A stretch of DNA of 64,000 nt from Nereocystis luetkeana (taxonomy: Eukaryota > Sar > Phaeophyceae > Laminariales > Laminariaceae), in contig JARUPZ010000020.1 in the NCBI GenBank assembly GCA_031213475.1, positions 8,607,562 to 8,671,561 on the forward strand, in the 5' to 3' direction. Position numbers and translations under genes: made by a program. A model generated the notes under the pieces. It searched no databases. It was not told where the DNA came from and saw nothing but the letters and a program-made list of their open reading frames with translations. Shown piece after piece: positions 4,410 through 63,700 of this stretch (the stretch's first letter is position 1; each line of letters starts with the position of its first letter).

Positions 4410-5385
4410 CTGTGTACAAGCGTAGCAAAGCATGTAGCCTCGTGACCCGTCATGAACCCAGTCTATAACCTAAACAAACTTGTATAATGCCACCGAGGTC
4501 TTGTGCAAAAGCAATTTTTATCACTTTCAGAGTTGATCAGAAAAGGCTGCCAAAAAAAAGCGTGTCCTCGAATTTCAGGAGTGATTAAATCTCAGAGGAA
4601 CATTTTTTCCACCAAACAGGCTCCATATGACGTGATTTTGATAAAATCTGATCAGATATGGGACCAGATACCCCGAAGCCTCCGTAAGCAGTCATAAAAT
4701 CACATTTAAAAAAATGCATAAGATCCGGCCTGAGATAGTGGCGAGGACAATATCCCAATATCTTTAGTTGCCGCGTTTTTTCGTTCCGCCAATATGTACG
4801 ACAATATATGCCCTGGTGCTATAATATACGAGAACGATACGCATAGCCTTGTACACGCAAAACACCAAGTACACTGCCGGTTTATGTTGATTGTACGTAC
4901 GACGCACACTTAGTGCTATATATAATATTGATGCGTATAAGAAATGAAATATATACAACTATGTACCAAAATATAACAACCTTTATATTGAATATTATCA
5001 GAGAAAACAACATTATATTTCGGGACAGAGTTGTACCTGGTACGGCTACTGTTTATTTTTCTCCATAGGCACTGCTGTTGCACAGTCTCTACTCTTCGGG
5101 TGGCAAACTAAATATCAGGAAGATCAAAGCGCCACAAAGTGGTGCCGTAACGCGTGATCTTATATATTACGATGAAGTTATCACATTACTCAATTTCCTT
5201 GGCACCTAGCCGGTGGTCACACGACAAGATAAGCAGAAAAGGCGATCCGCCGGAAGAAAACAGAGGTTCGAAAAAAAAATAAAAGGTACACCGCAGTAAG
5301 GTACTAACGACCTGTGGCATATATATGCAATCCTTCATCACTTGCAACCTAATAATATGATGACACCAGATTGAATAACGAGTAC

Positions 5386-5561
5386 CTTGTATTTAAGGTT
5401 GTTTTGGTATAGCGCGAGCTGCTCTGATACCTCCGGTCCTGGCTGACGCCCCAGAATTTTCTTCGACTTCACATACAGCTTCTCCTGCGCGTACACCATC
5501 CAATGCATACACGGGTAGCAGCACACCAACAGAACCGTGCATGCCTCGTTAGTCAATTTTG
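5386..5561 (-). CDS. Remnant gene, upstream exon
   Basis: A 58-codon frame bounded by a pyrimidine-rich acceptor (tacttccag) at the high-coordinate end and an AAG|GTACTC donor. It contains a cysteine-rich hydrophobic run (TVLLVCCYPCMHWMVYAQEK) followed by a charged stretch, suggesting a membrane segment or buried helix. It begins in phase 1 (two bases finish a codon), so there is at least one earlier exon, which I could not find. It ends in phase 0, matching the next block. Confidence 0.45.
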
Positions 5562-6928
5562 CTGGAAGTACCGGAAAAGAGAGGGGCGTCTAGTGCTCTC
5601 ACACAGAAGAGTCACAAAACCTACTGGTTGAAAGTTGCAAGTGCTGCGTGCACTGTTTCCTTTTGAGGGCCACGGTGGGGGCTATTCCAACAGTCAGAAC
5701 ACCCTAGCAGGGCGACTTGGATAGGGAAACCACAGTTAGGTGCAGCTACATCTAGCCGCAGATGCGTGCATCATCGTTTGCGGATTTGGTGGAGGCTGAA
5801 ATCATCCAACCTACACCGCTCTCTTCTTCCCCACCCTCATCACTTGTCTTCACTGCTCCACCCGAACTACGTACAAGCGGCGCCCTCCACCCCATCGTGG
5901 ATCAAGAAATAAGTGTGGTGGATATACTACAAACCTATAATTCGAAGTATACGAAATCGCTGTGAAGTAAATCGAACTACCTTAGACTCGCTCTCTGTAT
6001 GCACAGTAGCTTCGTCGACACGAAGCATTATGATTTTGCCGAAAGGGAAGGTGGAAGTACGATCGAGCATTTGTGTACAGTCTATACGGATCCGTGGCCA
6101 GTTGAAGGGTTGTCGGTCGGTGCTATATCGTGACGTAATTGCTGGTTGAAGCGTCGATGCCGCTGGTTGACGATGTCGCGATAGCATGATGATACCACTT
6201 GCCGGCGGCCGGCCCCGACTCGCGCCCGCCCAGCCGACAAGCCCCGTGTGTGAGTTAAGGATGGCCTCACGCCATGGGTTCTTGCTGGAACAGAATCGCC
6301 AGGAAGCGGAGCGTGTGAGCCAACCTCGAAGAAGTAAGCGTCACCGGGACCCGCGCGCAGATGAATTCCCTATGCGCGCTATGCTATGTTTGTGTATTGC
6401 ATAGGAGTACGTAACGTGGCTTGACAGTTAAAACCACAGACGAAAAAAAGAAAAAGCGAGCAGAACCCTGCAAAACTCAGGAAGAATTTCAAATTTGAAA
6501 GTTTGTTTGTTTTTGGATTATTTTTTTTTCTTCCAGCGGATTGATAAAACGAAAAAGAAAAGTTTGAGAGTTCGCCTGTCACATACACCAGAGTATCACC
6601 ATTGCCAAGTTGAACTTTGAAACTCAAACTATTAAAAATCTATATCACACCTTGGACCTGTAGCTTTGCCTCTGCTCCACTGCGCCGTTACGTGTAGGTT
6701 GCGGCTACGTACCAGACAAGGTGTGTGTACCAAGGGCTACGATTCATGCTACCATTAACCACCGCATGCATCTGATTGACCAAGCTTCTTACGTACGTAC
6801 AAAACTCAAGTTCTCTCATTATTCCAAGACTACTCTGCGTTTGAGGCTATATGCGACGGCATCATGTCGAAAACGCCGTTGTTACTCCGTGGATTCGTAC
6901 CTCAGACTGCTGTGTGAAGTAGCCTCAG
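5562..6928. other. Intergenic region, no supported gene
   Basis: Several short ORFs on both strands, none with splice sites or a recognisable motif. The plus frame around 6261-6390 is charged and open but short. Nothing here recurs in the rest of the window. Confidence 0.35.
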
Positions 6929-7124
6929 ACAAGCAACAAAAATACCTGGTAAACGTACTGCATCGTCCTCACCGAAAGCAGCGATCGACAGCTCGATCGA
7001 CGAGATCATTGACTTGGTCCTGCCGCATTGGCAGTCCCGCAATCCCTCACGGACGGCACCGCCCGGAACCAGCAGCTGTGGCGAGCCCACGATGTACGCC
7101 GAGCACCTTACGGAGGAACTACAG
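6929..7124 (+). CDS. Possible exon of unknown plus-strand gene
   Basis: A frame without an ATG start that reads like protein: KAAIDSSIDEIIDLVLPHWQ, then a Pro/Ser linker, then MYAEHLTEELQ. It is bounded by a possible acceptor (agcctcag) and a consensus-like donor CAG|GTGCCA. If unspliced it would run to a TGA near 7193. It lies 470 bp upstream of RecQ exon 1 on the same strand, so it could be a 5' exon of that gene or the end of another one. A TACCTGGTA motif sits inside it at 6943-6951, which argues for caution at its 5' end. Confidence 0.4.
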
Positions 7125-7227
7125 GTGCCAATCGCCAAGATATACGAGCGCCGCCCCTCGGTGGCTGTTTTTCCTTGCGATACCTCATCATGAGTCGCTT
7201 GTCTCTGCTTCCTTGTCACAGAAGCAG

Positions 7228-7233
7228 ACAACA

Positions 7234-7264
<31 letters not shown>
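7228..7264. repeat. (CTG)n microsatellite
   Basis: Near-perfect CTG/TTG triplets. Out of frame with any supported exon. Confidence 0.9.
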
Positions 7265-7267
<3 letters not shown>

Positions 7268-11100: not shown

Positions 11101-14100
11101 TCCGCCAGCACCCGCTGACACCCGCGATGGTGCCGGGTCCTCCCGCGATGCCGTGCTCGGAGAACACGCACGCACACGAAACGAAAGAAGAAAAAAGGAA
11201 GAAATGGCCGAAAAAACAAAGAACTGCTGGAAAGGTCCGGCAAGTAATGAAAGGAGGCGGTTTGGAAGTGGGAGCTCTGAGAGGCCAGGGATGCACCAAC
11301 CGAGCACGCTCAGGGGTTGTGATCTAAGTATGTAGTTCTATTACAAGGCGCTTCGCTCCGCGGGCGGCCTACGCCGCCCGCTACGCTCGCTCAGGAAGGA
11401 AAAAAGTACATAAAATTATGCGAAGCGAACAGAGGTCCACGATTGAGTTTAGTGTTTTCAATGATCGTAATTGCAAACCGGCGACTTGATAATGCCAAGA
11501 GTCCCGCCGCCATGCTTCAGGAAAAAACAGCTCCGACGTCAGCTTGGATGCCACATATACGCTTCGCGTCGCGGATGTCGTACGTACGTACATACACCCC
11601 AGGTAGGGTACTAACTACTGTCTGTACTTATTTTCTTCTTTCGATATGCTCTACCATGGTATGTCTGTACTGTATGTACGAAGAAAGCGAAAGCACAGCA
11701 CGGCACAGCAGCAAAAAAAATGAAAATGAAACCGAAAACTCGGAAAGGAAAAAAATCCCCGTCCCCTCTCGTGTAATATTTTTCTGCCTGGTTGGAACAC
11801 CTTACACCCGGTCGAAAAGAAGAAAAGAAAAAAACCGCACAGAAGAGCTTCTCTCTCAGCCTCGTACGCCGCCCGCCCCTCTCGCTACCACCTCGCTACC
11901 GATTCGGTCCGGGTAAAGCTTTTATCACTCTCTGCCACAATCAGCCCCGTCGCCCGCCCCGCGTGAAGCCGGGTGCTCACCGTGGCCGTCGTTCGCCAGC
12001 TCGATAACGTTGGTGTTCAAACTGCACACCTCCCTCTTTCAACTTCAGCGTGGTCGCAAAAATAAGCACCGCTTGAATAGTATCTTGCCCATCTGAACGA
12101 CCTTTATAAACTCGTACATACTCTATCAACAATCATAAATCGAAGCCAGACAAAGCCCGTTTATTCACCCCTCGTGTCTCGAGGCACACACGACGCCTAG
12201 GCACGCAAGCGGCGACCGCGCTCCTTGCAACCCCCCCTCTATCCGCCAGCACCCGCTGGCACCCGCGGCGGTTCCGGGTCCTCCCGCTATGCCGTGCTCG
12301 GAGAACACGCACGCACACGAAACGAAAGAAGAAAAAAGGAAGAAATGATCGAGAAAACAAAGAACTGCTGGAAAGGTCCGGCAAGTAATGAAAGGAGGCG
12401 GTTTGGAAGTGGGAGCTCTGAGAGGCCAGGGATGCACCAACCGAGCACGCGCAGGGGTTGTGATCTACCAGGTAAGTATGTAGTTCTATATTATACCTTC
12501 GTAGCATCAACCACGTACCGTACATTGCTTGGGTCCAGCAGCTGGGTACGAGAGTACGAGCATGATCTTGTCTAGTTGAGGCTGGGCTTAGGCTGAGTCT
12601 CGACAGGCTCCCGCCGAAAAATTCGAAGAGGGCAGATTTATGTATTTAGGGTGGATGTTCCGCCGGCAGCGTAGAAGCAAGCACGGAAGGGGAGCGGGTT
12701 CGTTTCGGCATGGTTGTGCCTCAATACTCCTCTATACAGACAGCCAGTATATAGCTCTGGTATTCATGTCGTTACTCTCTACACGAGCGCGAGTGTTTTC
12801 CATCCGAACATCCGAACGACTATCATTGTGAAACTGCTGTGAAACAATTATTAATGCTATCACTACCTGCTCGTTTTTTGAGATTACGGCGGGCTACGTA
12901 GCTTGTACGCAAATTGCAAATTTTCCACACCTTGTTTCGAATAATCGAGCTGTGTTTTGCGGTGCGGAAGTGGACGGTACTCCTAGAATGAGATCGGCAG
13001 GCAGTACAGCTGCGCGTTCAAACATGAGGAAATGGGGAGTTCCCTGGAGCGTGGTCGAGTAAGCGGTGTTGTGCGCTAGTTGGACAAAGGGTAACAGCTC
13101 TGCCCAGTTATCGAAGGATAAGTTGCTATACACAGCCAACACATTATGGACAGTATTGCTGTGAACACGTTCTACGACAGAGTTGCCCTGAGGGCGGAAG
13201 GCTGCTGCACGCGTTTCTTATATCCAAAAACTGACTGCAATTCCTTGACAAGTTGATTATCAAATTCCGTCCCCTGATCGGAATGCAGAGTTCCCGGGGA
13301 ACCAAACACCGAGAACACGCGGTCACGCTTGGACGAACTGAAAGTCGTAATTCTATATATCCTCATGCCCGCGAACAGTGTCGAAGTAAACTATTACGGG
13401 GGACCATAGTTAATAGGACCAAATATTGTTAGTAAAAAAATTGAAATATATAGGTTTTTTTAAGTCGGACAAAGGCGAGACTGTATCCGCCTCTGCCTTC
13501 ATTATATTCCTCCAAACGCGATTCGCTTAAAGGCCAATTAATAGAGTTATACACTCACTTTGACAAGGCAAAATACAATATATAGTTGCCAGGCGTATGA
13601 TAGTAAATGATAGACATAAGAGCAGGACAGACATTCTGCTGCCGTACCGTGTAGACAGGCGGATATAAGTATCCGAACATAGGGTCGGACAGGAACATAG
13701 TAAGCGAGTACCTTGGCCACGTTATTACTATTAATATCCTTTTTGGGACCCCGAGATGATGACCTAAAAACACCAACAATTTTTTGGGTGTTATCAATCG
13801 TATCCAATACGAGCAGAGTGAGCCCCCAGCAGTGCCATGTCATACGGGTAGGATAGGGTCGTGTTGCGTCCGTGCCGTACGGTTTCCTTGCATTCAACCA
13901 TTGTGACTCGGATACCAGCTTGTATCCTCCCCCAACCCAACCACGCAGTGGTCCTTGCTGTCATTGGCAATTCGTATCGTCATTTTTCAACTCTGAAGCA
14001 TCAAAAGCTGTGAGCCGGCAGCATTCCACGACCTATATGATAGCTACCTGGTAGTCGCTTATCCGGCGAAACCGACTATTAGTAGCTGATTCAGCCCACC

Positions 14101-17100
14101 CCCCCCATCCCCTGCCCCCCCCCGGCCGAGCGGGCCCCGCTAGAAAGGCCCGCCTCCGGAGGCGTGGCCCGCCTCTCACTATTTTTTTTTCAGTCTACGC
14201 AAGAAAAGCGAACCAACTATGGCCTAAGGTAGGTCCACAGCACAAAAAATGGCCTCAGTTTACGCAAGAAAAGTGCGTGCCAGGTGTATGAGAAGTACGT
14301 TCGAAAAAAAATAGTGGCCTCTCCGGACTACTGTAGAGGAACGTGACTGCAACTGGTCCCGTCGCAATATTTGCAATATTGCCTGACGGTAATACGACCG
14401 AAACAGCGAACTCAAATCACCAAGTTACGTACCAGGTACGGTATTTTAACAGTTCGACATTAGCGGTGTATGAACGATTCCCAGAGAGAAAATATGTGTT
14501 TTTTAGTTTTGTTTTCCGTGCCGTTTGTCTATACAGTACGAGCAGTATCTTCGACCTTCTTGCTCCTGCCCCCTCTGAGCCGTAGCTTAGGTCCGGGTTG
14601 GCATAGCAGGCCGTTCTCCCCTCTTCCCGCCACGACACGCGTCTTCCGTTTTCATCTCGAGAAAGGTTTAGCGCTTTCTTCCCTCGTAGGCTCGCGTCGA
14701 ATCGCGCCTACGCACGCTGTAGTAGGCGCTCTCGATAGTTGGTGTCGTTTGAGAAATAAAAAGTCTAGATTGAGAATCGAAGCCCTGACACGAACGCTGC
14801 TACTGTAGTATTCGAGGTTAGTCTCTTTCAAATAGGGACGTGGATCCCACCTGTACGTTGCCAGCTGCTGCAGACTAGAGCTAGAATTGCGGCAGTAGTT
14901 TTGGCAGTGTCCGAACTATTGAAAGTTACGTGGTAATAGTATCGTTGACCTACTGTATACCGGGTACAATATAGGATAGTAAACCTACTGTATGTCAGGT
15001 AGAGTATAGTAGACCTACTGTATTTATATATTAATATCGCTTTTACTTTCCAGCTTAACTCATACCTGGTACTCAGTAGGAGGTTATATCCTCAGCGGTA
15101 CTCAGCCGTGGTCGTAGGTCTTGTCCCTTTTCCTCCCCGGTACCCATGTAGACCTCTAGAACTACGGCGCAACAGCAGAAATTCCAGTGGTACCCGAACT
15201 GCAATGCTACATGTGTGGCCTCCTAGAGCCTTCTAGAGCGACGGCTTGGCCTCCTGTTGAGCCTACTGCCGGTCTAGAACTATAGCAGTAGTCACAGTAC
15301 ATGCCATCCGAACTACAAAGCTACAGCACGATCTACTGCCGGAGCTACTCTCCAGAGCTCTAGAACGACAGCAGTAGTTGCAGCAGTGTCCGAACTACAG
15401 CAGTAGGGTCTATAGTCTATATCGTCTGAAGTACAGAGCTACAGTGGGGAACTACAGTAGGGAGCCACAGTAGGGCCTACTGCCGTAGAACTCTCTATAG
15501 CAGTAGCTGCAGTAGTGACTACAATAGTGTCCGAACCACAACGCAAGGAGCATCGGAGGAAAGTTGCGGTGAAGTCCCGCGCGTATTTAGCATCTTACTT
15601 CGCTGATAGTTGCTGCCCTGACAAAAAGGTTGCGCGTGTATCGTGATAAGACGAGACCCCACGAATAGGACGGAGTGAGAAACTACCACCAACAAGCGCG
15701 AAATAGATCGGCTGGTTCGCTGCTCCGACGCTTTTTGTGGCACGAACGTTACGTTATTTTTTTCTTGAAACTGTATATCGGAAGGTTCTGCACCTGCGGT
15801 GGAGGCGTTTTTTATTTTTCATTCCCAATCCTCTTGAGGACCGAGACCGAATAGCGAATGGGACGCCAAATATAGAATATGGTGCCCGGGGTGGCCTTTT
15901 TGAACCGTTGAACCCCCAACGACAATATTTCAACAGCGCACTGCTGTAGCGGCCAGTGGAAAATGACCCTCAAATTGTAACCGCTTCCATTTCCGAAGAT
16001 TATGCGTGAGTTTTGATATTGGACGAACCGTGGGCCGAACCGATACATTCCAGGTGCCATGTACCCGCATCAGGGCGCATGCGGAAGCCCCCAGCCATCT
16101 CCAGTGGCTGTTTACCTCATTACTGCAATCGCCGTGCTCCGTCCCGGCATCGTAGGGATGTGAGGGTTTCTGGTCACGCGACTGCTGCCATGCATGACAT
16201 GAATACCCCCCCCCCCCCCCGCCATCACAGGTTGGGTTGGCGTCGGTTGGCAATGACACTGTACAATTCGCCGCTCACTACGTGAGCTAGACAACCAGGG
16301 TACCGTTTTTTTGTTTTTTGGCGGTCGCCCACAGCTGGTTGTCGAGTTAGATCATTTGTGCAAGGTAAAGAGCCTTTACTCCGCACAATTGGGAATGATC
16401 GTATCACGTAGTGTTGAAGGTAAGGCACCCAAGAGGCAGCTACATAGTACTCCCATTGCTGTCACTAGAGGTGGCTACACCAGAAATTAAATCAACTCAT
16501 TGAAGCTGTCGTCCATATGCAAGTCCGCCTCAAAAGCGGTTCTTAGTAGGATGCAGCTCACCCTTCATGCGACTCGCCAGACACCTCACGGCGCTTCGCG
16601 CTTGGTGCAAGCAATGTCTGCCTGGTCGGTGAAAACCCGACATGCTCCGTCCTGGCATTGTAGGGATGCGAGGGTCTATGGTCATACGACTACGGCCATG
16701 CATGAGATCGAGTACATCTCTCCTATCGAGTACACCCCCCCCCCCCCCCCCCCCGCCCCCCCCCCCTCATCTCCTGCCTCTCGATTTTCGATTTGCTCAG
16801 GAGGGAGTGGTGGCCAAGCTTCTGGCGGGCGAGTCTTGTGCAGGCGTTTTTCCTACGGGGGCGGGGAAATCCATCTGTTACCAGCTTCCAGGAACTCTCA
16901 TGGCGCAGCAGGGCCTTGGACTGACGCTTGTGGTGTCTCCTCTTATCGCCCTAATGAAAGACCAGGTGATATATCCCCGTAACACATATGGCACGTATCG
17001 AGTTCGACGTATGGTGCTGTTCACGCTTCTGCTGTTTTGCTGCTGCTGCTGCTAAAGCTAAAGCTAAAACTGTTGCCATTGTTACTGCATGTGTTTTCTT

Positions 17101-20100: not shown

Positions 20101-23100
20101 CGGCGTCAATCGCTTCTTCTCTCGCCTCGCTTTCCTTTTTTCTGGCCGTTGTTGTTGTTGTTCTCTTTGTTTTTGTCGCATCTAGTGCTACTGTATTATT
20201 CTGCTGTTGCTACTAATGTTGCTGCCGTTGCAGCATCTCCTGTTCGTCGGTCGGGAATGTCTGCTTTGGCCGGTGGAGCCTTTCGATAACTTTTTTTTTT
20301 TTTGCCTGTCATTGCATTGCCTCATCTCCGAGTTCTTCACTTGCTCCACTGTCGTCGTTGCTCCTCCTTGCGCCCCCCCCTCCCGCCGCGCCGCGCCGCC
20401 TGTACCGATTTTCCCGCGATCGCAACAGTGGGGACACAACTTCCGACCGGACTACCTGAGGCTGGCAGACTTCGCGAGGGCGGCTAAAGCGAGCGCGCGG
20501 TTAGCGCTGACGGCTACGGCAACGCCCAAGGTAGGGCCTCTCCGAAGCAGATGCTGTTGTCACGTGTTTCCTTCTGCCGTGCTTTCCTTCCGGTCGTTTT
20601 ATCCTCCCTCTTGGAAACGAAAAAAAGGTCTTGTATACCTGGAGTATACGTGTATTGATAGTGGCTTGTCCCTCTGTGTTGAGAAAAAACCCGCCGTATG
20701 TACGTGTTCGTATTACGGGGGGACCATAGTTAATAGGACCAAATGTTGTTAGTAAAAACAGGTAAATATGTAGGTTTTTATGGGTACCATAGGTCCTATT
20801 TACTATGGCCCCCAGTAATAGTAGCTTTTCTGATGTATCGTAAGAGTGTGAGCGATCGCCCCCCCCCCCCCCCCCCGAGACCGATTTTCGAAGCTCCATT
20901 GGTCCACAACCAAGAGGCTGCGAAAACCGAGCGACCAGTCTAAGGAAAGCTGTGAAACGAGGTCCTTCCCAAACCATGTTCTTCCTTGAGTATTGACACC
21001 CTCCCTCTCGGTTGCGGCCCAATCGATCGCTCTGCACGTTCGTCGCCGACGTGTTGCGACGGTGTTTTTGTTGCTGTCGCTTGAAAGCGGACGGCGCCAG
21101 CGACGCACTCTCACACGCGGCGCTTTTTTGGAACTGCGGCACACGTGCGCCCGGCCTCACCGAGCGCGTCAAACTCACCGCGGAGGCCCCATCGTAGCGT
21201 AGACGTACTCAGAATATAGCGCTCTGCGCCCTTTCGCTTACCGAAAAAAATGATCCCACACTAATTCCGAGTATACTCTGTCCAAAACCGTGGGTAGAGT
21301 TCTAAAGGGGCTACGTATAAACGTTTTACAAACGCCTAGAATGTCCTCAAGTGTTTCGCACCTAGGACAGGTAGTGGATTCCCACACTTCATTCACTATC
21401 TGGATCTCTCAGGGAAGATTTGTTCCTGATCTGTGTGATCTGTATGATCTAGCTCATGCTGCCTTGCCCGGCGGGCGCCTCATAATCTGCTTTATCTATT
21501 GATAGGACATGTTTCCTGGACACGTTTGTGTTGCGGGGTGAGGGCTGTATAGCCTGCGTGACCTGTAGGACGTCTTTTCTGGACACGGTTTCCTTGGTTG
21601 GGATCTGTACGGTACATATCCCCTGCCCAACATCTCATAACGGCACGATAGGATCTCGTAGATGATCTGTAGATGGATCAGATAGATACATCGTGATCGA
21701 TCTGTCCGACGTGTACGACGAAACGGAGGCGCAGGCAAAAGCGGTAACGGGGCTTTGTAACAACCCTTTTTTGCGGCGTCAGAAAAAAAAATGCGGCGAA
21801 ACCAGAATGGCGACCACAGCATCATCGGCCCCTGCTTGCTGGGGTTATCCGAACTACAATGGTTGAAACAAGGCGCGCCTACGCTGGCGCTCGTAGGCGG
21901 CTCAATGGTTGATAATAAACCAAACGTATTGCTGTTTGGTTGCCACGTCTGAGTCCCTAGTGACGGTATAAGGCCAAAATGAGAACATTTTGTGTTGCCG
22001 TTATCTCTTGTGTCCCAAGAAGGTTGTTTCAACGGCTATATTTACACAAGCCCATTTTATCGGTTCCGCTATCTCTGCGCTCCAAGAGGGTTGGTTTTGG
22101 TGGCTATTTTTGGACCAAAAATTGTGAATGTATGTATTCGGTCGCCATCTCTGCGTCGCAAAAATATTTTTTGTTGGTATTTGGTCGCTAAGAATCTTTG
22201 GGCCCCTGAGAGGACTAGCTAGATGGCTGAGACCAAAATTATACTAGCTTCATGGCTGAGACCAAAATTGTCGTTTTTTGTGGTCGCGATATGTGTCTCT
22301 GGGTCCCGAAAAGGGTTATTGGCTAATATCAGAATTGTCATTTTTTTTGTCCCTATCACTGGGAAACTCCTACAAGCGCGATCAACCAAACAATGCCAGC
22401 TGCTGCTGTCGGAGTGAGCTACTTGTTGCTGATACGCACTGAGCCAAAAAATACGACCATAGCGCCCAATTCTCTCTACAACAAACTACAGATCATTATT
22501 ATATCGGTTCCCGACCCCTAATAATGTTTTCTCTTTTTTTGGTTCCTGTATCTGGGTCCCAGGAGGGTTATTACGGGGGGACCGTAGTAAACAGGACCAA
22601 ATATTGTTAGTAAAAATAGGTGAATATATACAGTAGGTTTTGGTCTGTATCATAGGCCCTATTTCCTGTGGTCCCACGTAATAGTTTAATGGCTATAGGG
22701 GCCAACATTTGTCAATTGGTTCGGTCGCTTATCTCGGGTCCCCGACAGAGTTGATGGCTAAGACCAGACTATCATTGTTTTTGGCCGCTTTTTGCTGGAC
22801 CCCGAGAAGATAAGTGTAACCGCTAAAACCAAAAATTATCCATGCATTTGGACCGCGCCCACTGAACCCAGCCCCCCGTACCCGCCGCCCCTCTTTTTTG
22901 CCATCCGGCTATAGGTAACCGTGGACATCGCGAGCCGCCTGGACATACCGCCTCCCAATGTCATTCGCACACAGTTCTACCGCCCTATGTTGAACCTCGG
23001 CGCAGTTCGTGCTCCGGACGACCCGGCCGAGCGGACTCGCGTGCTCGCGAAGCTGATGGGGTCGGGGGGGCAGGGAGCGGCAGGGGCGGTTGTCGTCTAC

Positions 23101-26100
23101 GTGACGCTGCAGAAGACAGCTGTGGAAGTGGCGCAGTCGTTGGTGGCCTTAGGCCTGGACGCGAGGCCGTACCACGCTGGTTTGCCACCTCTTCAACGCG
23201 AGGTATGCCAGCGGGTGCGCGCGCGCGCGCGGGGGGGGGGTGTGTGCTCACGTCATGCACGGCCGTAGCCGTATTGCCACATATTAGACCGTCGCGTGTC
23301 TACAATGTCGGGACGGAGCACGTCGGGTTTTCAACCGACCCGGCGGGCACTGGTTGCTTGCGCCAAGCGCGAAGCGCCGTGGGGTGTTCGGTGAGTTGAC
23401 TCGCACGGAGAAGGGCGAACTGCATCCTGCTGAGAGTATTGAACTACCTATTCATAGAGCGTCCTAAACAGCTAACCCGGGTAGAGCAGCACTGTATACG
23501 CAGGCGGGCGGGGCGGGGGGGTGGCGGGAAAGTGTTCTTGGCGATGGTTACGCTCGTTCGCTTCGTCCGGATGATTCCGCGTTGTGGCTGTCTCGCCATC
23601 GTTTTATCTTGGGTGGAAACGCCGTTTGCTGCTGCTAAGCGCACCGTGAGAGTGCGGCGTGTCTGCGCGCTTGCGGTCCGCTGATATTGGGCGCAGGGCC
23701 CTCTCACGTGTATGTGCGGTGACCCTGACCTTCCGCGACGCGACCGTGCGCGAGAGCTGAAAGCCTCGGCACCGGTCTCCTTCCTTCCTTGCTGCATATC
23801 GATCGACAAGCAGCTACAGTAGCTCTTTGCTGACGCGGCTGCGTCGTAGATGCGGGTGCCGGAGTTGCGGCTGATGCTTTGCTCCTCCGGTTTGTCACCC
23901 CCCACGGCTGCTGCTGCAGTTGATATGCAGCTATCGATGACACGGGTCGTGTCGTTGTTGCTTTGAGCTTCGCGGGGGCTCCATGTTGGGTTCGCTCGCT
24001 GGCTGCTCACTGCAGCGTCGGCTATGATCGCGCGACCAGGTCGTGTTGCGCTCGTAACCGCCAACTCTGATGTCGACGGTTCCAAGCAGATCCGCTGCGT
24101 CGCCCCCAGGTTGGGTAACAAACCTACCCGCCCGTTACCCTACCCTACGCTGGGAACGCGTTTCTTCGAGCACCATCTTTTTGGCGCTCGGGGTGTGGAC
24201 GAGGGTCTCACCACGTAGCGAATTTTGGCGTGTTTTCTCCTCGAGGGAGGGGGGGGGGGGAGGGGTCACAGAAAAATCGATCACTCACACGATTATTTTA
24301 TGTTAGCGTCGGGCGCACGAGTGTGGCAATCAGAGCAGCATCGGTCGCGCACGATTGATACGTACAGCATTGGTCAGACGAAGCAGCCCCGGGGGGCCGA
24401 GAGGTAACGGGGTGTAGCCGGAACACACTGCAAGGAGACGTTCGAAACGCTCGCAGAAGGGTTCTGGTCGTGCCGCTGCGGGCTCCCACTAGTGGGGGGG
24501 GGGGGACATACCGCTATGTCCCTCAATATAAGGAGTCTTTATATACTAATCTTGAAGCAGAACTGTGTTTATCTGTAAGGACAGAATGGTATTACGGGGG
24601 ACCATAGTTAATGGGACCAAATATTGTTAGTAAAAACGGTTAAATATATAGGTTTTATGTATACCATACCAGGTACCAGGTAGGTCCTATTAACTATGGT
24701 CCCCCGTAGTAGTATTCAAACCCAACATATGGCGTGTAAAACATAGGGGGGTACATGGTGTTTCGGGCCCGTCGTGCGTTCTGATTGCTGTTGCCCCTCC
24801 TCTCCCCCCTCGCAATAGATATATGATGGATGAGGCTACTCCTGGCATGTTTGTGGCCGCTATACGTGGGTGATAGCATGCTTTTTGGGGCCATCGTGCG
24901 TGAGGCCTGCTCACGATGCCCCCCCCCCCCTCGCAATATATTCATGATGGATTAGGCCGCTTCTGACGTAACTTTGGCCGCTGTGCCTGGGTGATGCGTG
25001 GCTGTTGGGACCATCGTGCGTGAGGCCTGCTTACCATCCCTCGTCCCGTGATGGATGATGGATAAGGCCGCTTCTGGCACAATTTTGGCCGATATACCTG
25101 GATCCCATGAACGCGTTCTGATGCTCAGGCGCCACCTTTTCACCGCTATGCTATGCTCCGATAGAATGGTAGAGGTCGCGCACGTTTCGATTTTTTTTTG
25201 TTTGTTTTGTTTCTGAATGACGGGGGAGGCACCTCAACCCACAACCGTCGGAAAGCCAAAATGGCGTTTTTGTATGCCTATTATCCCTTTTAGAACCGCA
25301 GTCCCGTTTTGGGGACGGACCACTCAAATTTCAAGTAGTTTGTCCCCACAACGGACTGCGGTACTAAAAGGGTTACGAGGCCTTTGGTATTATTCGTCGC
25401 GGTGCATTTTCGTTTTTTGCTCAGAAGCAGCTTCTGGATGACTTACTGCAGTAATTACTTAGTACCTGGTATTGGTATAGGCCTCTTCAAGTCAGCTGCC
25501 TTAAGACAACAAAAAAGGTTTTTCCTCCGCTGCAGCACGCGTCCCGGTCTGAACTCCAACCCAACTCATACCCTTCACTCAAAAATGCGCCATGTTTTTT
25601 TTCCCGTCGAGCTCAGGAAACCCAGGATTGGTTCATGAACGCGCCGGACGGCGCAAGCCCGGTGGTGGTGGGGACTATCGCGTTCGGCATGGGTTTGGAC
25701 AAGAAGAACGTGCGGCACGTTTATCACTTCAACTTGCCGAGGTCGCCGGAGGACCTCGCGCAGCAGGCACGTCGAGTGTTTGGTGGCATCGCTGTGGGAA
25801 CCAAACCCCTCTTTTTTTTCAGAGATATAGACTACATACCTTGAATGGATAGTTTTGACTCCCTGCTTAAGGATCTGGATCTTTCAGGGCGGATATATAT
25901 ACATAGATAGATAGATGGATAGATAAATAGATAGATAACTAGATATATATAGAAAGATTGATAGATAGATAGGTCCATTCCTGATCTGTGTGATATATTG
26001 ATAGCTCATGTTGCCGAGTGAGGGGCGTCTAACCTTCATGATCTGTGAAGGCGTGTTTCCTGGGTTGGATCTGTACCATACAGATTCTACGCAGCATCTC

Positions 26101-29100
26101 ACGGCGGCAGATTGGGGTCTAGACGATCTATCTGTAGATCCATCTGTAGATGATTTCTCTGTAGATGAGCTTTCTGTAGATGATCTATCTGTAGATGATA
26201 TATCTGTAGATGATTTATCTGCAGATGAGCTGTCTGTAGATGATCTCTGTAGATGATTTATCTGTACATGATCTATCTGTGCATGGTCTATCTGACCTGT
26301 CCGACGTGTGGAGATTTCTGCTCATGGTCACGGACGTGCGGCCGACGTCATCCACACTAGAACCCACCGCACTGAACGGAAATAAAAGTACCGTTGGGGA
26401 ATAAATATGAATATCCAACGGCCCTTACTTTTCCGTCCAGGTCGGTACCAGAACGTAACAGCTACCTGGTAGTAGTTGAGGTCAAAGCAAGCGTCCATCA
26501 CGGCATTTTGTCTTCAAATCTTGCCGCCCCGTCACACCCCTAATCTGCCGAAATTGATTTTACATGCTTGCCCTCTTTGGTTCGAATTTCGGCGCTCAGG
26601 CCGTTGCGAACACCCGTACGTGGTCCGCGGTGATACGTGGCAAAACGCTCAAAGGCAACACCCGACTTGATCAAACCCCAATGGATGCGCAGTCGCTATG
26701 TACCTGGTACGCTTTATTATAGCACACGGAGGACGGGCATGGCATACTACTGTACACCTAAAGGGTACCTGGTATACAACACTCGTTCCTGTTTGAGATA
26801 AATTTGGGCTTAAGAGAGAGAGGTCAAGTGAGCCCTCTGACACGCCCCTCTCTCTCTAAACCCTTCCAGGTTTGCAACCCCGTTGTGTTCGGAACAATCT
26901 GATTCGAAAAAATTTAGTGCAGGATTGTTTTTTGCAGTAGTGAACGAGTTGAGACGTGATACCCACTGCTGTGTCCGCCACATTTTGCGTTGCAGGTGGG
27001 GAGGGCCGGGAGAGACGGGAGACGCGCGATCTGCCGCACCTTGGTCTCCGCGGCAGACCTCCCCCTCCTCAGGTCCATGATCTATGGAGGCACGCCCAGC
27101 CCGACGGCCGTTCGAGGACTGCTACGGACCGTGTTCGGAGGCGGAGAGGACGAAGCAGACTTCAGCTTCTACGACCTTTCCCAGGTATGTCATGACCACG
27201 CGCGCGCGCTCCCCCAAATTGAAAACCTTGTGGTCTCGCTCCCCCCTGCCCCCTGCCACCCCCCCGCACCCACCCGAGCAATGAATTCGACGCCGCTGTC
27301 CGTATGCTCGAAAACCCGCCTCAGAAGCGGTTCTCGTAGTAGGATGCAGCTCACCCCCCATGCGACTCGCCCAACACGCCACGGCGCTTTCGTGCTTGGT
27401 GCAAGCGATGTCTGCACTGCCGGTGACCACCCGACCTGCTGCGTCCCGGCATTGTAGGGATGCGAGGGTCTATGGTCATATATACGACTGCGGACATGCA
27501 TGATACTGAATCCACATCCCATCCCCCTCCCCCTGCACCGTAGCATGCCTCAAAAGGGGGGCCTAGTTACGCGTTAAAGATTGTTTGGGTTTTGCACTGC
27601 TGCGCGCGAGCGTGCTGGGGGGGGGGGGGGGGGGGGGATGCTATTGGCCATGCTTGCTACGTAGCATCGGCACGGTTCCGGTTTTTCATGCGGTACCCGA
27701 CCCGAGAAACAGGTGAACGACGTGCAGAGACTCCCGAGGTTTTGTAGGAGCATTTTCGCAAAACGTTTGAAAGACATCGAGCGTCCGCTCCGGTCCGGCA
27801 CTCCTCGGTTTATTTCGTCGCATTCCCCCGAACTCCCTCTTCAAGAAGGCCGACAACATTTCCGGACTGCTGGACCCTTGACCCTTATATCCGTTGAGGA
27901 TACGGGCAAAAACATATTGTCTCTCACGGATGCGGACTCATTGCGTGTCTTGCGTTCGTGTGAAATTCTTAGTCCGTTGCCGTTGTATCATAGGTTGCGT
28001 GAATGTGTCAGTCGGGGCTCGGGTTTCTTTGTGTCGACGGGTTTGGCATGTGTCAGCAGAGGTTCGGGGTAACCACGATCCTTGTGTTTCACGTACCAGT
28101 ATGCGTAAACACTAGCGGCCATGAGAAAGGCGTATGTCTTGTCCGGACTTCTTAGCTGTTAGGTAGATGAGTACTGTAAGTCAGCCAGTTAGCTGAGTCT
28201 GCCTTGAAACGACTGATTCGAAACACAAGCCGAGCCTTAAACGCGACAGTTATATTTCAAGACGTGGAACTCCGCTAATAACCATACGCAACTAACTACC
28301 TGGTATGAAATAGCTAGCCAACTGATAGCTAGTCGGCGACTTAATGTCTGCCAACCCGCACCCCTAGTACGCACTTCCACCTTTTCTGCCTAGCCAACAT
28401 TTTTTTAGTCGGCGACTTATCGTCGGCCGACTCACAACCATAGTATAAGCACTCCCACCTTTTCTGCCTAGCCAACTAATAACTATGTCGGTAATCGTCT
28501 GCCAGCTTTCACGCCTAGTAAGCACCCGCACCGTTTCTGCCTAGCCAACTAACAAGTAGTAGGCGACTTATCGTCGGCCAACTCACTGCCCTAGTGAGCA
28601 CTCATACTTTTTCTGCGTAGACAACTAATATCCCTAGCCAACTATTAATAATAAGCGGTCGGCGACTTACAGCCAACTATTAATAATAAGTGGTCGGCGA
28701 CTTACAGCCGGTCAACTCACAGCCCAAGGAAACACTTCCACCGTTTCTGACTAGCCAACTAACAACGAGTGGGCGAAAATTCAGTAAGCCAAGTTTTTAG
28801 TCGGCCAATTTGTAGCCCAATTTACGGGGGACCGTAGTAAATAGGGCCGACGGTACGCACAAAAACCTATCTACTTCCCTACTTTTACTATTACGGGGGA
28901 CCATAGTTAATAGGACCAAATATTGTTAGGAGAAATGGTCAAATATATAGGTGTTTTATATATACGACAGGTCCTATTAACCATGGCCCCCCGTAATAAA
29001 AGTATTTTGGTTCTATTTACTATGGCCCCCCGTAAATAGGGAACACCCCCGCCCCCACCTTTTCTGCCCGTGATACTGTTTGGGTGTGCAGGAGCTGGAC

Positions 29101-41300: not shown

Positions 41301-41635
41301 TGGGGCCGTGATGGAGTAGCTGGCAGCTTATGCCACTGGCGGTCAGCACGTACCAGGTACCAGGTACGTAGTTTACCGTAGTGAGGCCGGGACAAGAAAA
41401 CGAACACCGTAGGTAGTGGGTGGGTTCTAGACTCGCAAGTCGTAGCTGGCGGGCACATATTAATAGTCTGTGTGGCATAGCGAGTTTTGGTTGCTTTCGC
41501 AGTGTCCAGTCGTTTCCCTGGCTATATACGGCGAGTCCTTTCCACGGTAGTTTGCAGGGGGGGGTGGGGTAGTCGCACTACCGGGCACATATTATAGCAA
41601 GCACCGTGCCTTCGGTTTTCTTTGAGATAGTAAGT

Positions 41636-42467: not shown

Positions 42468-43449
42468 CATCCAGAGCACTATCAATACCTGGCTCGAGAA
42501 AAAAGCTTACCGTTTTGGGACTTCGAAGAAAATTGACGGAAACGGCCACTGCGTGATTGGGGTATGGCAGAAACTCGTCGTGAAATTTGAACGTGGAAGT
42601 GTGGTGAGCTTTCAAGTTTTTATGTTTACCACGCCGCCGGAGGAGCATGTGTAGTACTGCTGTACCCTGTACACTAATATTAAAAGAAGAGAAAAAAAAG
42701 AAGAAGGTATCCAAGTTGCGGCGCAAGGAGTTGCGCGGCACGGCCCTCAACATGATCCTGCCCGTCCCGCTGGGGGCTCGCGCTGCTGCTCGTAGATTGT
42801 GTGATGGTACCAAAGGTATCAGCCATTGTTCTGGTGGCTGACTCGGGGGTCTCGGAGGGGATAGTGTGGAAGGCGATGAACGATCCCAATGGCATACGGG
42901 TGAATGGAACGAAAACATGGCATTGTGGAACACTAGTAGTGCTGTACTATTAATAGTGTTCTCGTAATGGTATACCGACGATGCTATTCACAATGAGGGT
43001 TTGGGCTCCGTTGGTTGAAGAGCACAGTCAGTCAGAATCAGTTGTGCCGAAATGTGCTGCTGCAGCAGTAGCTCTATCGATGCTTGTGCTATATGCGGTA
43101 TGGTATATGGTGTGCAGTGCCTACATTTTTTCAGGCTCCTCCTTACACTTTAGGAGGTACCTGGTACTATTTTTGTACTGCATATTTCTCCCCCAAGAAC
43201 TGTTTTTGCTTTTTCAAACCAAACGGGTGTGTCTGTTTAACCTCGGCCTATGAATCGTCGGTGTCGTTCTCAAAATAATAAGGGTGTGAACGAAACAAAT
43301 GGGATTCACGATAAAGCATGCCCTTAATGGGTAGTTCCTCTGTGCCCTCGAGGAACCTCATCAGTTCCAGTGACAAAACAAATGGACAAAAAAATGTTCT
43401 AAGGCATGCCCTACCTATCGTAGTACGCCTCCTCACGACCTCAGGCGTT

Positions 43450-46369: not shown

Positions 46370-46466
46370 TTAACCCTTTTAGAACCGCAGTCCCGTTTTG
46401 GGGACAAACCACTCAAATTTCAAGTAATTTGTCCCCAAAACGGGACTGCGGTTCTAAAGGGGTTAA
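46370..46466. mobile_element. Palindromic MITE M2, best copy
   Basis: Near-perfect inverted repeat of about 40 bp arms: aacccttttagaaccgcagt and cccgttttggggacaaacca, pairing with tttgtccccaaaacgggact and gcggttctaaaggggtt. TTAA or TTTAA at both borders. Confidence 0.88.
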
Positions 46467-47094: not shown

Positions 47095-50000
47095 CTGAGT
47101 GGTGCATCCCAGGTTTAAAAGCATCGACAACGCGGAGGCATCATGCATATATATTTGTGCGTAAAGACGGTACGTATACCTGGTGTGTACTATTGATGAG
47201 AGGGTATGGGAACAGGCGAAAATTATTTAGTGAGTGCCTCGAGTGTAGTGAGAAAATATATTCTCTGCTAATACGAAGTATTAACATTAACAATATTAGC
47301 AATAATAGTAATGATATGAACAATAATTATAGTAATCATCATAATATTAATGAAGACAACTAATAACAGCAGTAAATAATAATGAGTAGTATCTCTAAGT
47401 TCACGATAGTGATAATATTCACAGTTGATCGAATGGCCTGCGTGAGGCGTTACACTGAAGCTGGACTCCTGAACGCGGTTGCGGGGCAAACAAAAACGCA
47501 AGAAGAAGGAAAAAATCACCTGGCAAACAGAAGAAACACGCCTCCCAAGGTCTCCACCTCACTCCTGAGGTACGATCCGAAGTTGGCGACGCCAAGCAAG
47601 TCTTCGTCGGTTTCTCTCCCCCCTCGAACCGCCGACATCAGAGATCGAGATCGCGCGTCCGGTTTCATACGGATGTATTCCCCCACTGTCGAGTTTGTCT
47701 GCACGTACACCACCCGGAAGGCAACAGGGGGGAGAATTAAGTTCGGTTCGGGGACGGGGGGGAGGGGACTTACAGGTGAGCTGGTTGGAAGGCGGGGTAG
47801 GGCAGATTGAAGGGGGGAGGGGGGGGGTGTACTCGATAGGAGAGATGTACTCGATCTCATGCATGGCCGTAGTCGTATGACCATAGAACCTCGCATCCCT
47901 ACAATGCCGGGACATGAGCATGTCGGGTTTTCACCGACCAGGCAGACATTGCTTGCACCAAAGCGCGAAGCGCCGTGAGGTGTCCGGCGAGTCGCATGAA
48001 GGGTGAGCTGCATCCTGCTAAGAACCGCTTGTGAGGCGGACTTGCATATGGATCACAGCTTCAATAAGTTAATTTAGTTTCCGGTGTATGTAGGCAATTC
48101 CTTGAGAGAGGGGGGGGGGGGGGGGGTCGCGGAACTGTTTGTTCGCACATACTGTCTGTTTGCGTTATCACACGTGTGATAAGATAACACACCCCCTCGG
48201 ACGACTTTTCCGAGCCGATTTTCTCTTTACAGTGGGGAAGGTGCAAACGCCGAGCGACGAGTATCTCGCCGAGCTATTTCCAAAGCCACCAATTTCGTTT
48301 TTGTTTATGCCACTCCGCTTGCTGCTTTAGAAAAAACTCGTATCGAAAACTTACCTACGAAGTAGCCCCAGAGAGAGTGTGTTTTCTGGCGAGCAAAAGT
48401 ACGTATACGTCATAATGAGTTTGCAGGGCGGCAAAACTTGTGGCTTTGCGCGCAAAAATATTGAAGAAACAAAATCATGTCGCGACCAACATTTCCGCAT
48501 TAATTAGAGAGAAACCACTAGTATTACGGGGGGACCATAGTAAACAGGACCAAATATCGTTGGTAAAAAATAGCGATGTTTACAGGTGTTTGTGTGTGCC
48601 GTAGGTCCTATTAAATATAGTCCCCCGAAATAATTTGATTGTATCGCACTCTCGAACGTGGAGGGAATCTGCCCTTTTCATGGCGCGACCGATGAAAATT
48701 ATCGTGGCTCTCAGCCGACGAAAGGACCGTGGGTGCTGGGTATAGCTCAAGCAAGCGGGCGTAGAGACGAAGGGAAGCGCTCGTTCGTGGCCTGTGTGCT
48801 GTAGTGTTTGCTTCGTGCCTCGGTCCCGCTTGCGGCTGGCATGGCAAGGGAAAAGCGGCGGCCGTGAAAACAAAACGAAACCGTATCCTTCTCCAGGTGA
48901 CGCACTTGCTTTGGTACCGTGTATCTGAGGCTACTGGCTGGAGGAGATCTGTGCTTCGCTCGCCCCACGGCCGACCATAAGCCCGGTATGAGTACGCAAT
49001 AAAAAAACGGATGATTGATATTCCGGGGGACCATAGTTAATAGGACCTGTGGTATACATACAAACCTATACATTTAACCATCTATACTGACAATATTTGG
49101 TCCCGTTAACTATGGTCCCCCGTAGTAGTTATCATACCTGGTACGCATCTAGCGAATACTGGTGTTGTGTATCTGGTGGACAACTTGGCGCATCGGATCT
49201 CGACATGCTATTAGGTGTTGCAGTGCCTACGATATCGTGTGCCTCGAACCGCAGTAGTATTAATTTGGCTACTTTTTTGTCATTGTATAGTATAGTGAGT
49301 ATGGGAATGTGTCAAACGAGGGCAGGGGTTTGTTGGAATACAACTATTACGGGGGACCATAGTTAATAGGACCTAATATTGTTAGTAGAAATGGTTAAAT
49401 ATATACCTGGTAGTTTTTTTGTGTATACCACAGGTCTTCTCAACTACGGTCCCCCGTAATAGTTTCCGCAGGAAACTATTGGCTATTTTCGTATCGGGTC
49501 GTTGCACAGGAACACCTGACTTTTTGCTTTTATGTCGTACTGGAATATATGAACACACCGGATGTATGTACGAGCCCTGATATTGGGTAGCGCCTCAGCT
49601 GAGGTACCCCCCCCTCCCGTCGGACATTTTTCAGGCAAAAAACTTCAACCCCCCCCCCTCTCCTACGTGGTACCACGGTATGAGTCAGAGGTCATCATGC
49701 ATCCCGTGCGTGGCGGGCACGCGGTCGAAGCATCGCACGCAGCTGGCAAAAGACGAATCTCGACGAATTTATACGAGTAGAACCGACAGCTGACGTGTCG
49801 TTTAATTAAACGTTTCGGTTGAAAATGGCGGATGTTCGAGTCACTGCCGGTCAAGAGACATACCTGTGCTTTGAGCTTGCTCCAGCTGGTCATGGTCGGA
49901 GCACCCTCGGTGGGCGAGGCGGAGATAGCGCTGTCAAAGCGGTCCTGGGTCGGAATGGAGGTTGTCGGCGCGAGACATTTAATCGTTGGAGGTTTCCGGC

Positions 50001-59759: not shown

Positions 59760-59835
59760 GGAGGGGGGGGGGGGGGGTTACTCGATAGGAGAGGTGTACT
59801 CGATCTCATGCATGGCCGTAGTCGTATGGAGGGGG
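59760..59835. mobile_element. Poly-C element (family B), inverted terminal fragment
   Basis: G18 run, tactcgataggagaggtgta, ctcatgcatggccgtagtcg. Confidence 0.75.
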
Positions 59836-60231
59836 GGGGGAGGGGGGGGGGCGGGAGGGGTCCTGACCACCTGTGTAGTGGTGCGTTTTATAGCATTGTT
59901 TGGTGAAATATGCCTCTCTGGTTGACGGGGTGGGAAATACCTAAATGCTACCTGGTACCTCTCTGGGCTGAAATAAAAGTACACTTTAGACACTAATATG
60001 AAGACCAAGCGGTCCTTATATTCACGCCCAAGGTGGTATTAGATATGTATATATACTTATTTTGTGGCGTCCAGTGATCAATCAACGTGCGGTGGCACGC
60101 GAAAGCTCCAACATTTTTCGATCCCTCATGAAAAAAATCGCAAAACGTAAAAAAAAAAAAAACGAAAAGGCCTACTAATGCCGTACCTGCTGGCTGCAGT
60201 ATCGTGTGCAGTCTCCTTTCGTGAATTACAT

Positions 60232-60817: not shown

Positions 60818-60921
60818 CTCAGACAGTCGCGCGCAACGGTAAATAATGTTGCGCTTTGTTTTTTTTGTCTATTGAGGCAAAATATTCTGACCGGTTGAGC
60901 TCCTTCAGTGAGCAGCTGCTC

Positions 60922-61049
60922 TTGCGGGGGACCACAGCAATTACTGTAGTACCGAATATGTGTATTAGCAAAAAAAAATAGGTATATATATATACTGGTA
61001 GGTTTTTGTATGTACCAAAGGTCCTATTTACTATGGTCCCCCGTAGTAG
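60922..61049. mobile_element. MITE M1, diverged copy
   Basis: ttgcgggggaccacagcaat to ggtcccccgtagta, with a TACTGTA word in the left arm. Confidence 0.82.
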
Positions 61050-61266
61050 CACACCGTTTAGTACGATAGTTATGCCGCCACAGCTGTTTGAGGGATTTCG
61101 AAGGGCACAGAAATATTGGCCCGGTTGTGCAAAGAACGTTCTTCGAAAAGTCATGTTTGTCGGGTGGGATAATGGGCTCCTCATTTAAAAAAAAAATACG
61201 TCGCCACCCCTTACGTAAGGGTGCTGCTACAGTACTGCATTTATTTTGAGATAAAACGGAAAGATT

Positions 61267-61338
61267 GACCCTTTCAGGACTGCAGCCAAATTGTAGGTAG
61301 TTTGTCCCAAAACGGGACTGCGGTCCTAAAAGGATTAA
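61267..61338. mobile_element. Palindromic MITE M2, shortened copy
   Basis: ccctttcaggactgcagcc and aaaacgggactgcggtccta arms. Confidence 0.7.
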
Positions 61339-61365
61339 CCCCGTCGAACAATCCTCATGGCCTAC

Positions 61366-61478
61366 TATTACGGGGGACCATATAGTGGGTAGGGCTAAAT
61401 ATTGTTAGTAGAAACAGGTGAGTATGTAGGTTTTTGTGTGTACCGTAGGTTCTATTTATAATGATCCCCAGTAATAGT
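61366..61478. mobile_element. MITE M1, copy
   Basis: tattacgggggaccatatag to gatccccagtaatag. Confidence 0.85.
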
Positions 61479-61796
61479 AGGCGCTAACAAAGACTACTAA
61501 AAATAGGGTGAGGGGTGTGGGCGTTGTGTGAGAATAAATATTGAATTGGAGACTACTTCGGTTAAACAAATCGCACTGACTGTGAATTAATTTGTTTCCA
61601 CTCCCTCCGTGGCCCAGACACATGCACCAACACCATAAATCGACCACCCTGGCCCTACGTACGTGCGAGTGGTGCCAGGTGCTGGTAGGAGGTAAATAAA
61701 AGGAGAAGGGGTGGATGGAATTAATGACTAATTGCTTGAGCTAGTGTGGATCAAACGGTTTTTGACAATGGAGGGCAACGATATCGAAATAGCACT

Positions 61797-61907
61797 AGTA
61801 CGGAGGACCACAGTAAATGGGACCTACGGTACACACAAATACCTATACATTTACCTATTTTTCCCAACAACATTTGGTCCTGGATACTATGGCCCCCCGC
61901 GCAATAC
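61797..61907. mobile_element. MITE M1, copy
   Basis: gtacggaggaccacagtaaa to ggccccccgcgcaata. Confidence 0.83.
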
Positions 61908-63700
61908 GTGTACTTGAAATATTTTGGGTATGTGCTAGTAGTTCCTCAGTCAAGCAGCTCCCCCCGTCAGTCGGAAACATCTTGCCCTTATTGTTGGAAT
62001 ATTACCCCTATGGTGGAACGCCTCCTCAAGACATTTCGGGTGCACCCTTACCGTGGCAGGCGTTTTTTGCCGGGAGCGCGATTCAGAGGGGTTGCATCCG
62101 TCAAACATCCAGTGTAGGTGTATTTCGTAGACCGGGCTGGTCGGGGCGAGAGCGGGCGGGCTTTGTGAAGACGACGGGTGCTGCGGCGACGATAGTATTC
62201 TCCGGCTCGAGAGGAGAGCGCCAGGCCGTAGCGCGCAAGGAACCGCCTGGTGCTTGGCGACGAGAGCGGGGGGTGATATCTTCCCCTTTTGAAACGGATG
62301 CAAAAACAGAAACAATAAGCACGGGGGCAAGGGGATGGGGGCGGGGTTTGGAGACAAGGGAAGGGGTTTCCCCCACGGGTTGGATTACAGGGCAACACGG
62401 CCGAGAATCGGTCAGGGGGGAGGGGGTTGCTGCCGTCCCCACTCGATAAACTCGCTGTCTGGTGGATAGCAACGGGAGGGGGTGGAGCCCTTCTCCTTCG
62501 AGCACGTGCCAAACAAACGCAAACATGGGTGTCGCACACACTCCAGGCAAAGGAAAGACAAGCGCGAAACGGACGAGCTCGGAACGGACGGAGGGGGGAG
62601 GGGCGGGGGGGGGGTACTCATGTCGTTCATGGCAGCAGTAATCGTATGACATTGTTGGCCTAGAGTAGGCGGGGAGGGTGGCTCCACGCCAGGTTGAACG
62701 GAAACATACCTGGTAACATCTTTACCGTTCAAGCAGATGCCAAACACACACAAAGATAACACCACACGCGAGAGAAGCGGAAGCTGACAGCGGAGTGGGC
62801 CAGGGTAAGTCTTGGAGGGCCACTTTATGGCCGAATCTCTGGCTGCATGAGCTCCTCGAAAGCACTGAGGAATTACTGTACCCCGTATACATGTATCCCG
62901 AAAGTGTTTCACAATGTGTTATCGCTACCACCTACGAAGGTCATGGTAACCTTGTTCCTCGTTAACCACATATTCCGTCAACATTATTGTTATGCTTGCC
63001 TTCCGACAATATAGCGTAGATGCTGTTCCCATATAACCGAGTACCCTTCCGTAAATCAGCAGTTTCTCTCATACGCTTCTCTGCTTGCCCTTTCCCAATT
63101 TCCATTCCCCACACCATTTCAGTTTAGCTACCGGTATCGTATATCCTATTCCTCGTCAAAGTTCCGTCCCCAGGTCATTGGCCGCATTCCCCCGGCTTCT
63201 TCCTCCCTTCCCCTAGCGGCCTGGTGGCCCCTCAGGGCTAGTTTATACCAGCATTCAGTTTGGGGTGACTCGCTAATAGTGTGGAGCTGTTCGAGCGAGG
63301 GGACTATCTCGTATCCCATCTTTATCCCACGCTGGGTTTGGTTTGTTAGCATCTACTCGTAGGTCGTGGGATTTTGTTCATCAGGTTAAGCCTGCACATT
63401 TCTCCGAAAAATAGTTGGGTGAGGTGTGGAGCTCTGCGAGCGACTTACCGTACCTAAACAAAATGGTTGCTACGGTATACGATACCCCGTTCGCAGCAAC
63501 ACGTCGAGAAGGAACGTTCTAGGAACGTACTACAATAGGAACGTTCTACAGACCACAGCTTATAGGGGAAAAAACACGCCCGAGAATATTTCGAAGGCAG
63601 GCCGTCGGAATCCCCAACGGAGCAAAACCATTGAGTATAACGGTATTATCGGATGTTTTGACCGATGAGGTGGAGGGGTTGTCTGAATAGCGTGGTTATA
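61908..63700. other. Probable intron sequence, no supported exon
   Basis: Several overlapping ORFs on both strands at 61.8-62.9 kb lack splice support. A minus frame ending EAGGMRPMTWGRNFDEE (63146-63352) is protein-like but has no donor before its stop. A family B fragment lies near 62605-62660. Confidence 0.35.

Follow-up and report, generated by a model that had tools for sequence, protein, structure and literature searches.

TACCWGGTA words in a kelp genome as probable excision footprints of a TA-targeting, Tc1/mariner-like transposon

Footprints of 2–4 bp are given for the Tc1/mariner superfamily of DNA transposons in an account that also describes the palindromic AT preference, ATATATAT, of one of its members, the ZB element (PMC7913693). 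TACAGTA and TACTGTA are listed as the two consensus footprints of Sleeping Beauty (PMC4378557). The Stowaway/Mariner group of miniature inverted-repeat transposable elements (MITEs) in grasses is described as leaving a small duplication together with short end sequences after excision (PMC4561436). Among brown algae, Ectocarpus has TA-targeting DNA transposons and MITEs as well, including 17 Tc1/mariner families with 11,912 copies (PMC12477816). Here we describe a 9-bp word, TACCWGGTA, in a 64-kb stretch of the Nereocystis luetkeana genome (G000:C20:8607562-8671561, where G000 is the source assembly of 465,085,209 bases; "the window" below is this whole stretch). We interpret the words, with a probability of roughly 0.8, as scars left by the excision of a Tc1/mariner-like cut-and-paste transposon that targets TA and has 5′-CCAGG tips and 3′ overhangs of about 5 nt.

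The CCWGG words share with the Sleeping Beauty footprint, TAC(A/T)GTA, the TA target, the W centre and the occurrence as a reverse-complement pair (PMC4378557). They differ in carrying five nucleotides (CCWGG) instead of three (CWG) and in their flank preference; a separate CWG class in the same DNA has the Sleeping Beauty-type form, which the CCWGG class does not. Like the scars described for the grass MITEs, they combine a small duplication with short end bases (PMC4561436). In contrast to the very complex patterns described for MITE excisions in rice (PMC4423477), there is a single dominant scar. The Ectocarpus study counts copies, not scars, and the terms "footprint" and "excision" are absent from its main text (PMC12477816). 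In the open-licence literature, with subscription journals mostly outside the search, we recognised no publication that treats CCWGG footprints or such scar counts.

The window contains 14 copies of TACCTGGTA and eight of TACCAGGTA. All 22 words lie where the initial annotation had placed them, and they form 20 loci, two of which are doubles. Only 0.51 words are expected for both forms jointly under a second-order Markov model, and 200 simulations of the window with this model gave a mean of 0.60 and a maximum of three; TACCWGGTA is also at the top of an enrichment ranking of TA-X-TA words in the window. No strand is assigned to any footprint. Single TACCTGGTA words were matched at 5034..5042, 6943..6951, 14045..14053, 15063..15071, 25463..25471, 26463..26471, 26701..26709, 26766..26774, 28297..28305, 43158..43166, 59949..59957 and 62707..62715, and a single TACCAGGTA at 14430..14438. 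Word matching likewise gave a double footprint, TACCAGGTACCAGGTA, at 41351..41366. The word at 39514..39522 is not an independent case, as it belongs to a tandem duplication of 29 bp in which the second copy reads TACCAGGTG. The excess is genome-wide: we counted 182,395 copies on the + strand of the 465 Mb against 1,744 of a reversed control word. Twenty 10-kb stretches from seven contigs (200 kb in total, 2,500 N) held 67 copies, with 0 to 7 per stretch, where 1.65 are expected.

That the motif is an insertion at TA was observed directly by comparing repeat copies. Most insertions are exposed by the MITE M1, which measures about 105 bp when free of inserts and has ends TTACGGGGGACCATAG and flanks AC-TA-GT. 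It is common in the genome and has about 20 copies in the window between 946 and 61904 (for example 24590..24711, + strand, with its flanking TA, placed by M1 alignment). Five footprint loci are spanned by self-alignment, and at four of these a TA has become TA-CCWGG-TA, as had been claimed for the same sites. They are 12466..12474, a TACCAGGTA in a satellite copy whose sister has a plain TA; 24667..24682, a double TACCAGGTACCAGGTA adding 14 bp within the M1 copy 24592-24709; 32289..32297, in the M1 copy 32243-32355; and 49404..49412, in the M1 copy 49347-49459. At this last locus there is a clean gap of +7 against one M1 partner, while the top-scoring partner divides the gap. The fifth spanned locus, the word match at 49135..49143, adjoins an M1 copy on the outside; it is covered only by the end of an unrelated match and is uninformative. 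In all, five of 21 aligned M1 copies (one of them truncated) have extra bases at a TA: CCTGG+TA in two, a double CCAGG+TA in one, CAG+TA in one (22629..22635) and the shortened CTGG+TA in one (60993..61000). Four of the five, namely all but the double, occupy one TATATA spot. Neither of the two CCTGG-bearing copies (32289 and 49404) has the other as its closest relative, and this speaks for separate hits. The position of the footprints within M1 copies also fits the proposed order of events, in which M1 was tagged after it had inserted.

Small insertions that distinguish repeat copies were also listed blind across 264 kb, some of the repeat pairs being weak (65–75% identity). Of 351 raw loci, 40 were of TA type, and the commonest inserts among these were CWG (7 cases), CCWGG (6 cases and a further double), C alone (4) and TTAA (3). 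At L036 1828-1870, for example, three CCWGG copies lie within one (TA)n tract. The flanks of 66 held-out loci are mostly unrelated, and the motif is thus not contained in one longer repeat.

The CCWGG sites also display a target preference. With both sides read outward, T is favoured at +5 and +6 in the window; a permutation test gives p=0.0002 when all 20 loci are used and p=0.0006 when only the 15 that lie outside known repeats are. Pooling the two sides of the 66 held-out loci shows a preference for T, A, T and A at +1 to +4, T at +6 and A/T at +7, with a weaker +5 signal. This palindromic, AT-rich preference resembles the one reported for ZB (PMC7913693). Insertion with duplication of TA, another property of Tc1/mariner elements, is indicated by the pairs of empty TA and TA-X-TA sites; no element itself was seen.

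The mechanism we propose would begin with a DNA transposon whose insertion at TA duplicates this dinucleotide. On excision, cuts would fall exactly at the 3′ ends of the element but some 5 nt inward of the 5′ ends, so that a CCAGG 3′ overhang would remain on both flanks. The overhangs would anneal CC with GG around one central A.A mismatch, and repair of this mismatch to A or T would produce TA-CC(A/T)GG-TA. A one-base slip of the overhangs would give CCAGGG, CCCTGG, CCATGG and CCCGGG (centres AG, CT, AT and CG), and the opposite slip might, more tentatively, yield CCAG or CTGG. The element, its transposase, the geometry of the cut and the repair step are what we infer from the scars.

The insert is uniform, and its variant spectrum was read directly. 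In 314 kb, the centre of CCWGG is A in 50 cases, T in 58 and C or G in 11. Six-base forms, TATATACC-NN-GGTA, gave 1,184 + 1,224 matches genome-wide against 38 + 39 for the control. Among the matches listed, 93 distinct places were classified by their centres: CT 31, AG 21, AT 13, GT 11, CG 9, AC 4, and CC, GG, TG and TT one each. The four slip-predicted dinucleotides, of 16, thus account for 74 of the 93 places, and words special to a CCTGG tip for one. Likewise, the four slip-predicted six-base words occur 14 times in 314 kb (1.55 expected), and CCTGGG, CCCAGG and CCTAGG, which are special to a CCTGG tip, once (1.02 expected). Since slip-type variants are frequent and CCTGG-tip words are at chance level, the tip of the element can be read as 5′-CCAGG. 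The initial annotation had proposed ends beginning CCT or CCA with W set by mismatch repair; the central mismatch fits, and the variant spectrum would amend the tip to CCAGG. The terminal repeat of Mos1-type mariner elements also starts with CCAGG, their usual footprint being 3 nt.

Two further classes of TA-bounded words accompany the CCWGG class. The word TATTAATA occurs 11 times in the window (0.37 expected) and 40 times in the 200-kb sample (1.1 expected); one copy, TA-TTAA-TA at 35222..35229, is inserted in an M1 remnant, as seen by repeat self-alignment. Its sites prefer AC-TA-GT, the flank preference of M1 itself, and M1 probably leaves TA-TT-AA-TA as its own excision footprint. Scored for the M1 flank preference, TATTAATA gave p=0.00025 (8 sites), CWG p=0.00005 (32 sites) and CCWGG p=0.64; as CWG sites also score, this preference is not unique to M1. 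M1 was considered as the CCWGG donor and rejected on this result. The TTAA sites share the preference and the CCWGG sites do not, so the CCWGG donor would be a different element. TACWGTA occurs 37 times in the window (7.3 expected) and 82 times in the 200 kb (26.1 expected) and prefers C-TA-G; its window sites include 22629, 50958 and 58128, and four lie in an array at 35.7-36.05 kb. We infer that this class is the mark of a second, unseen donor. It is diluted by chance words, as indicated by the array-borne sites and by 11668 and 29479, which, compared with their partners, look like substitutions and not insertions. TACGTA (31 against 14.7 expected) and TACSGTA (22 against 7.7) are mildly enriched in the window.

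Allelic differences could be sought in kelp-like sequence filed under bacteria. An M1 20-mer is present in three contigs of bacterial metagenome-assembled genomes (MAGs) assigned to Flavimaricola and Saprospiraceae. L012:15-3600 is 99% identical to G000:C4, and L016:717-1722, from the same MAG, to G000:C8. By eye, L012 (JALZWD010000061.1) looks chimeric, algal to about 3.6 kb and then bacterium-like, and L010 and L011 have M1 matches at their starts. A bull-kelp microbiome study describes whole-tissue assemblies with 39.0-49.8% kelp DNA (PMC9238374). We compared the 99% identical stretches of this one MAG with G000. Over 3,575 aligned bases (ends trimmed), L012 and L042 differ by 30 substitutions and three indels of at least 3 bp; over 1,000 bases, L016 and L043 differ by five substitutions and one such indel. 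One of the four indels is an additional CTGG+TA next to a footprint and another an additional TTAATA within a TATTAATA; of the remaining two, one is a CAG microsatellite and one a gap of 5 bp away from TA. Three of four TACCWGGTA places are identical between the allelic stretches. As footprint evidence these differences are suggestive only.

Several results weigh against the footprint interpretation or parts of it. The main form has 5 bp and the minor form 6 bp, outside the 2-4 bp given for Tc1/mariner footprints. The GT/AC six-base class (CCGTGG/CCACGG) makes up 15 of the 93 places among the matches listed and is not predicted by a slip. The 4-nt form is weak in 314 kb, with CCAG at 18 against 4.25 expected and its reverse complement, CTGG, at only 6 against 4.84. 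No pairs of CCWGG ends with matching terminal repeats were found in 264 kb, and a looser rule applied to 317.6 kb gave no CCWGG donor pair beyond footprint-to-footprint pairs. We also used M1 copies genome-wide as a trap, examining the sequence that follows AAATATATACCWGG: TA follows in 1,792 + 1,812 matches and other sequence in 231 + 134 (365). About 200 of these 365 were listed (about 100 per set), and visual inspection of them showed no 10-mer recurring after CCWGG in the manner of a terminal repeat. The continuations are either M1 in which the TA has decayed, six-base variants, footprints nested in one another or single sequences unrelated to the rest, one poly-T continuation being seen twice. 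With Pfam DDE_3 (PF13358) as the query, none of the 30 first-look candidates scored in the genome reached E<=0.001. Finally, decayed copies are no commoner than expected when the window is taken by itself (11 against 11.15).

The trap contains about 2% of all footprints, and we estimate from this that such donors may number no more than a few hundred. The "abundant element" of the initial annotation is not supported, no donor having been met in the 264 kb, the 317.6 kb or the trap matches listed. Of the proposed Tc1/mariner-type source, the TA target and the footprint reading fit; membership in the superfamily is unproven because no transposase was seen. Other donor candidates were rejected. 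In the window, paired TA-flanked terminal repeats, whether they end in CCWGG, CWG or otherwise, are only M1-type, footprint-to-footprint or scattered chance pairs. A CCT-ended inverted repeat at L029 8307-8584 has terminal repeats that extend past the TA, and the TACAGACAG repeats in L032 form a local satellite-like array. The 16-base double footprint occurs in nine IMG/VR contigs, where chance was estimated to give more.

The absence of decay in the window had hinted that the scars are very young, an idea that was dropped as the larger sample shows decay: 264 kb hold 89 intact words and 86 one-mismatch words (47.1 expected). From these a mean scar divergence of about 5% is estimated. M1 copies differ by 3-22% from a hand-typed consensus, the truncated copy by 29%.

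The same footprint mechanism could operate with a shorter overhang of 3 nt (tip CCA) or 4 nt (tip CCAG), where the ends would overlap by 1-3 bases and the gaps would be filled; we consider this possible though unlikely. A 3-nt stagger is usual for Sleeping Beauty-type elements, and by reasoning a 4-nt CCAG overhang would also produce CCWGG through a 3-nt overlap. However, a CCA tip alone cannot make CCAGGG and CCCTGG, which occupy 52 of the 93 places among the matches listed, and with a CCAG tip the six-base set would require overlap without any Watson-Crick pair. It is quite improbable that TACCWGGTA is no scar and instead a protein-binding or other functional palindrome under selection; its palindromic form, extreme copy number and lack of excess decay in the window would suit such a role, but not its 7-bp presence or absence between repeats, its insertion into plain (TA)n tracts, the 5- and 6-nt forms with their mismatch-type spectrum, or the decayed copies in the genome sample.

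Spread of the motif by local duplication or replication slippage is very improbable. Doubles are above chance (5 loci in 314 kb, 0.70 expected), and exact tandem duplication of 6 bp would account for the CTGG+TA and TTAATA allelic differences as well, yet the flanks of single copies are mostly unrelated and three of eight overlapping pairs among the genome-wide matches listed have A-next-to-T centres, a mixture that simple duplication would not produce. We give a negligible chance to membership in one longer repeat family: TACCAGGTATATA, found in eight of 26 source sequences, is accounted for by the TA-rich target preference, and the 66 loci otherwise mostly differ in their flanks. The interpretation of the words as excision footprints is supported; the excess is genome-wide, insertions at TA occur in sister repeats, and no single longer repeat contains the motif. 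A low-copy element that jumps often over a long time would leave many scars and few copies, donor elimination being an alternative. In a version of the latter that we regard as a long shot, a TA-bounded family would have been eliminated, purposely or wholesale, by 5-nt staggered excision of nearly all its copies, so that the sequenced nuclei would retain heritable scars, about 180,000 of them, but hardly any element. This same long shot would make the process an imprecise kelp counterpart of ciliate-style DNA elimination, with the donors missing from the sequenced tissue and kept by another stage or lineage.

The surroundings of the footprints include a RecQ-type helicase gene at 18.7-27.2 kb of the window (+ strand, perhaps to 29.2 kb), whose introns of over 1 kb point to a eukaryote; MITEs and footprints sit inside these introns. 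A second short inverted-repeat element, with TTTTAGAACCGCAGTCCCGTTTTGGGGAC ends, is present in the window at 25260, 46349 and 46382-46454 and in L012 at 2949-3045. A long complex tandem array extends over 8.1-12.5 kb; near 8173, 9592 and 11339 it contains a GC-rich segment that is strongly palindromic.

If the footprint interpretation is right, scars and not copies would be the main trace of this transposon, at about one 7-bp insertion per 2.5 kb of the genome, and many small indels would stem from DNA transposition. A stagger of 5 nt would lie outside the footprint range given for Tc1/mariner elements. Scar counts would then expose cut-and-paste elements that are extinct or very rare, and with them their tip, cut stagger and target preference, without any copy being at hand.

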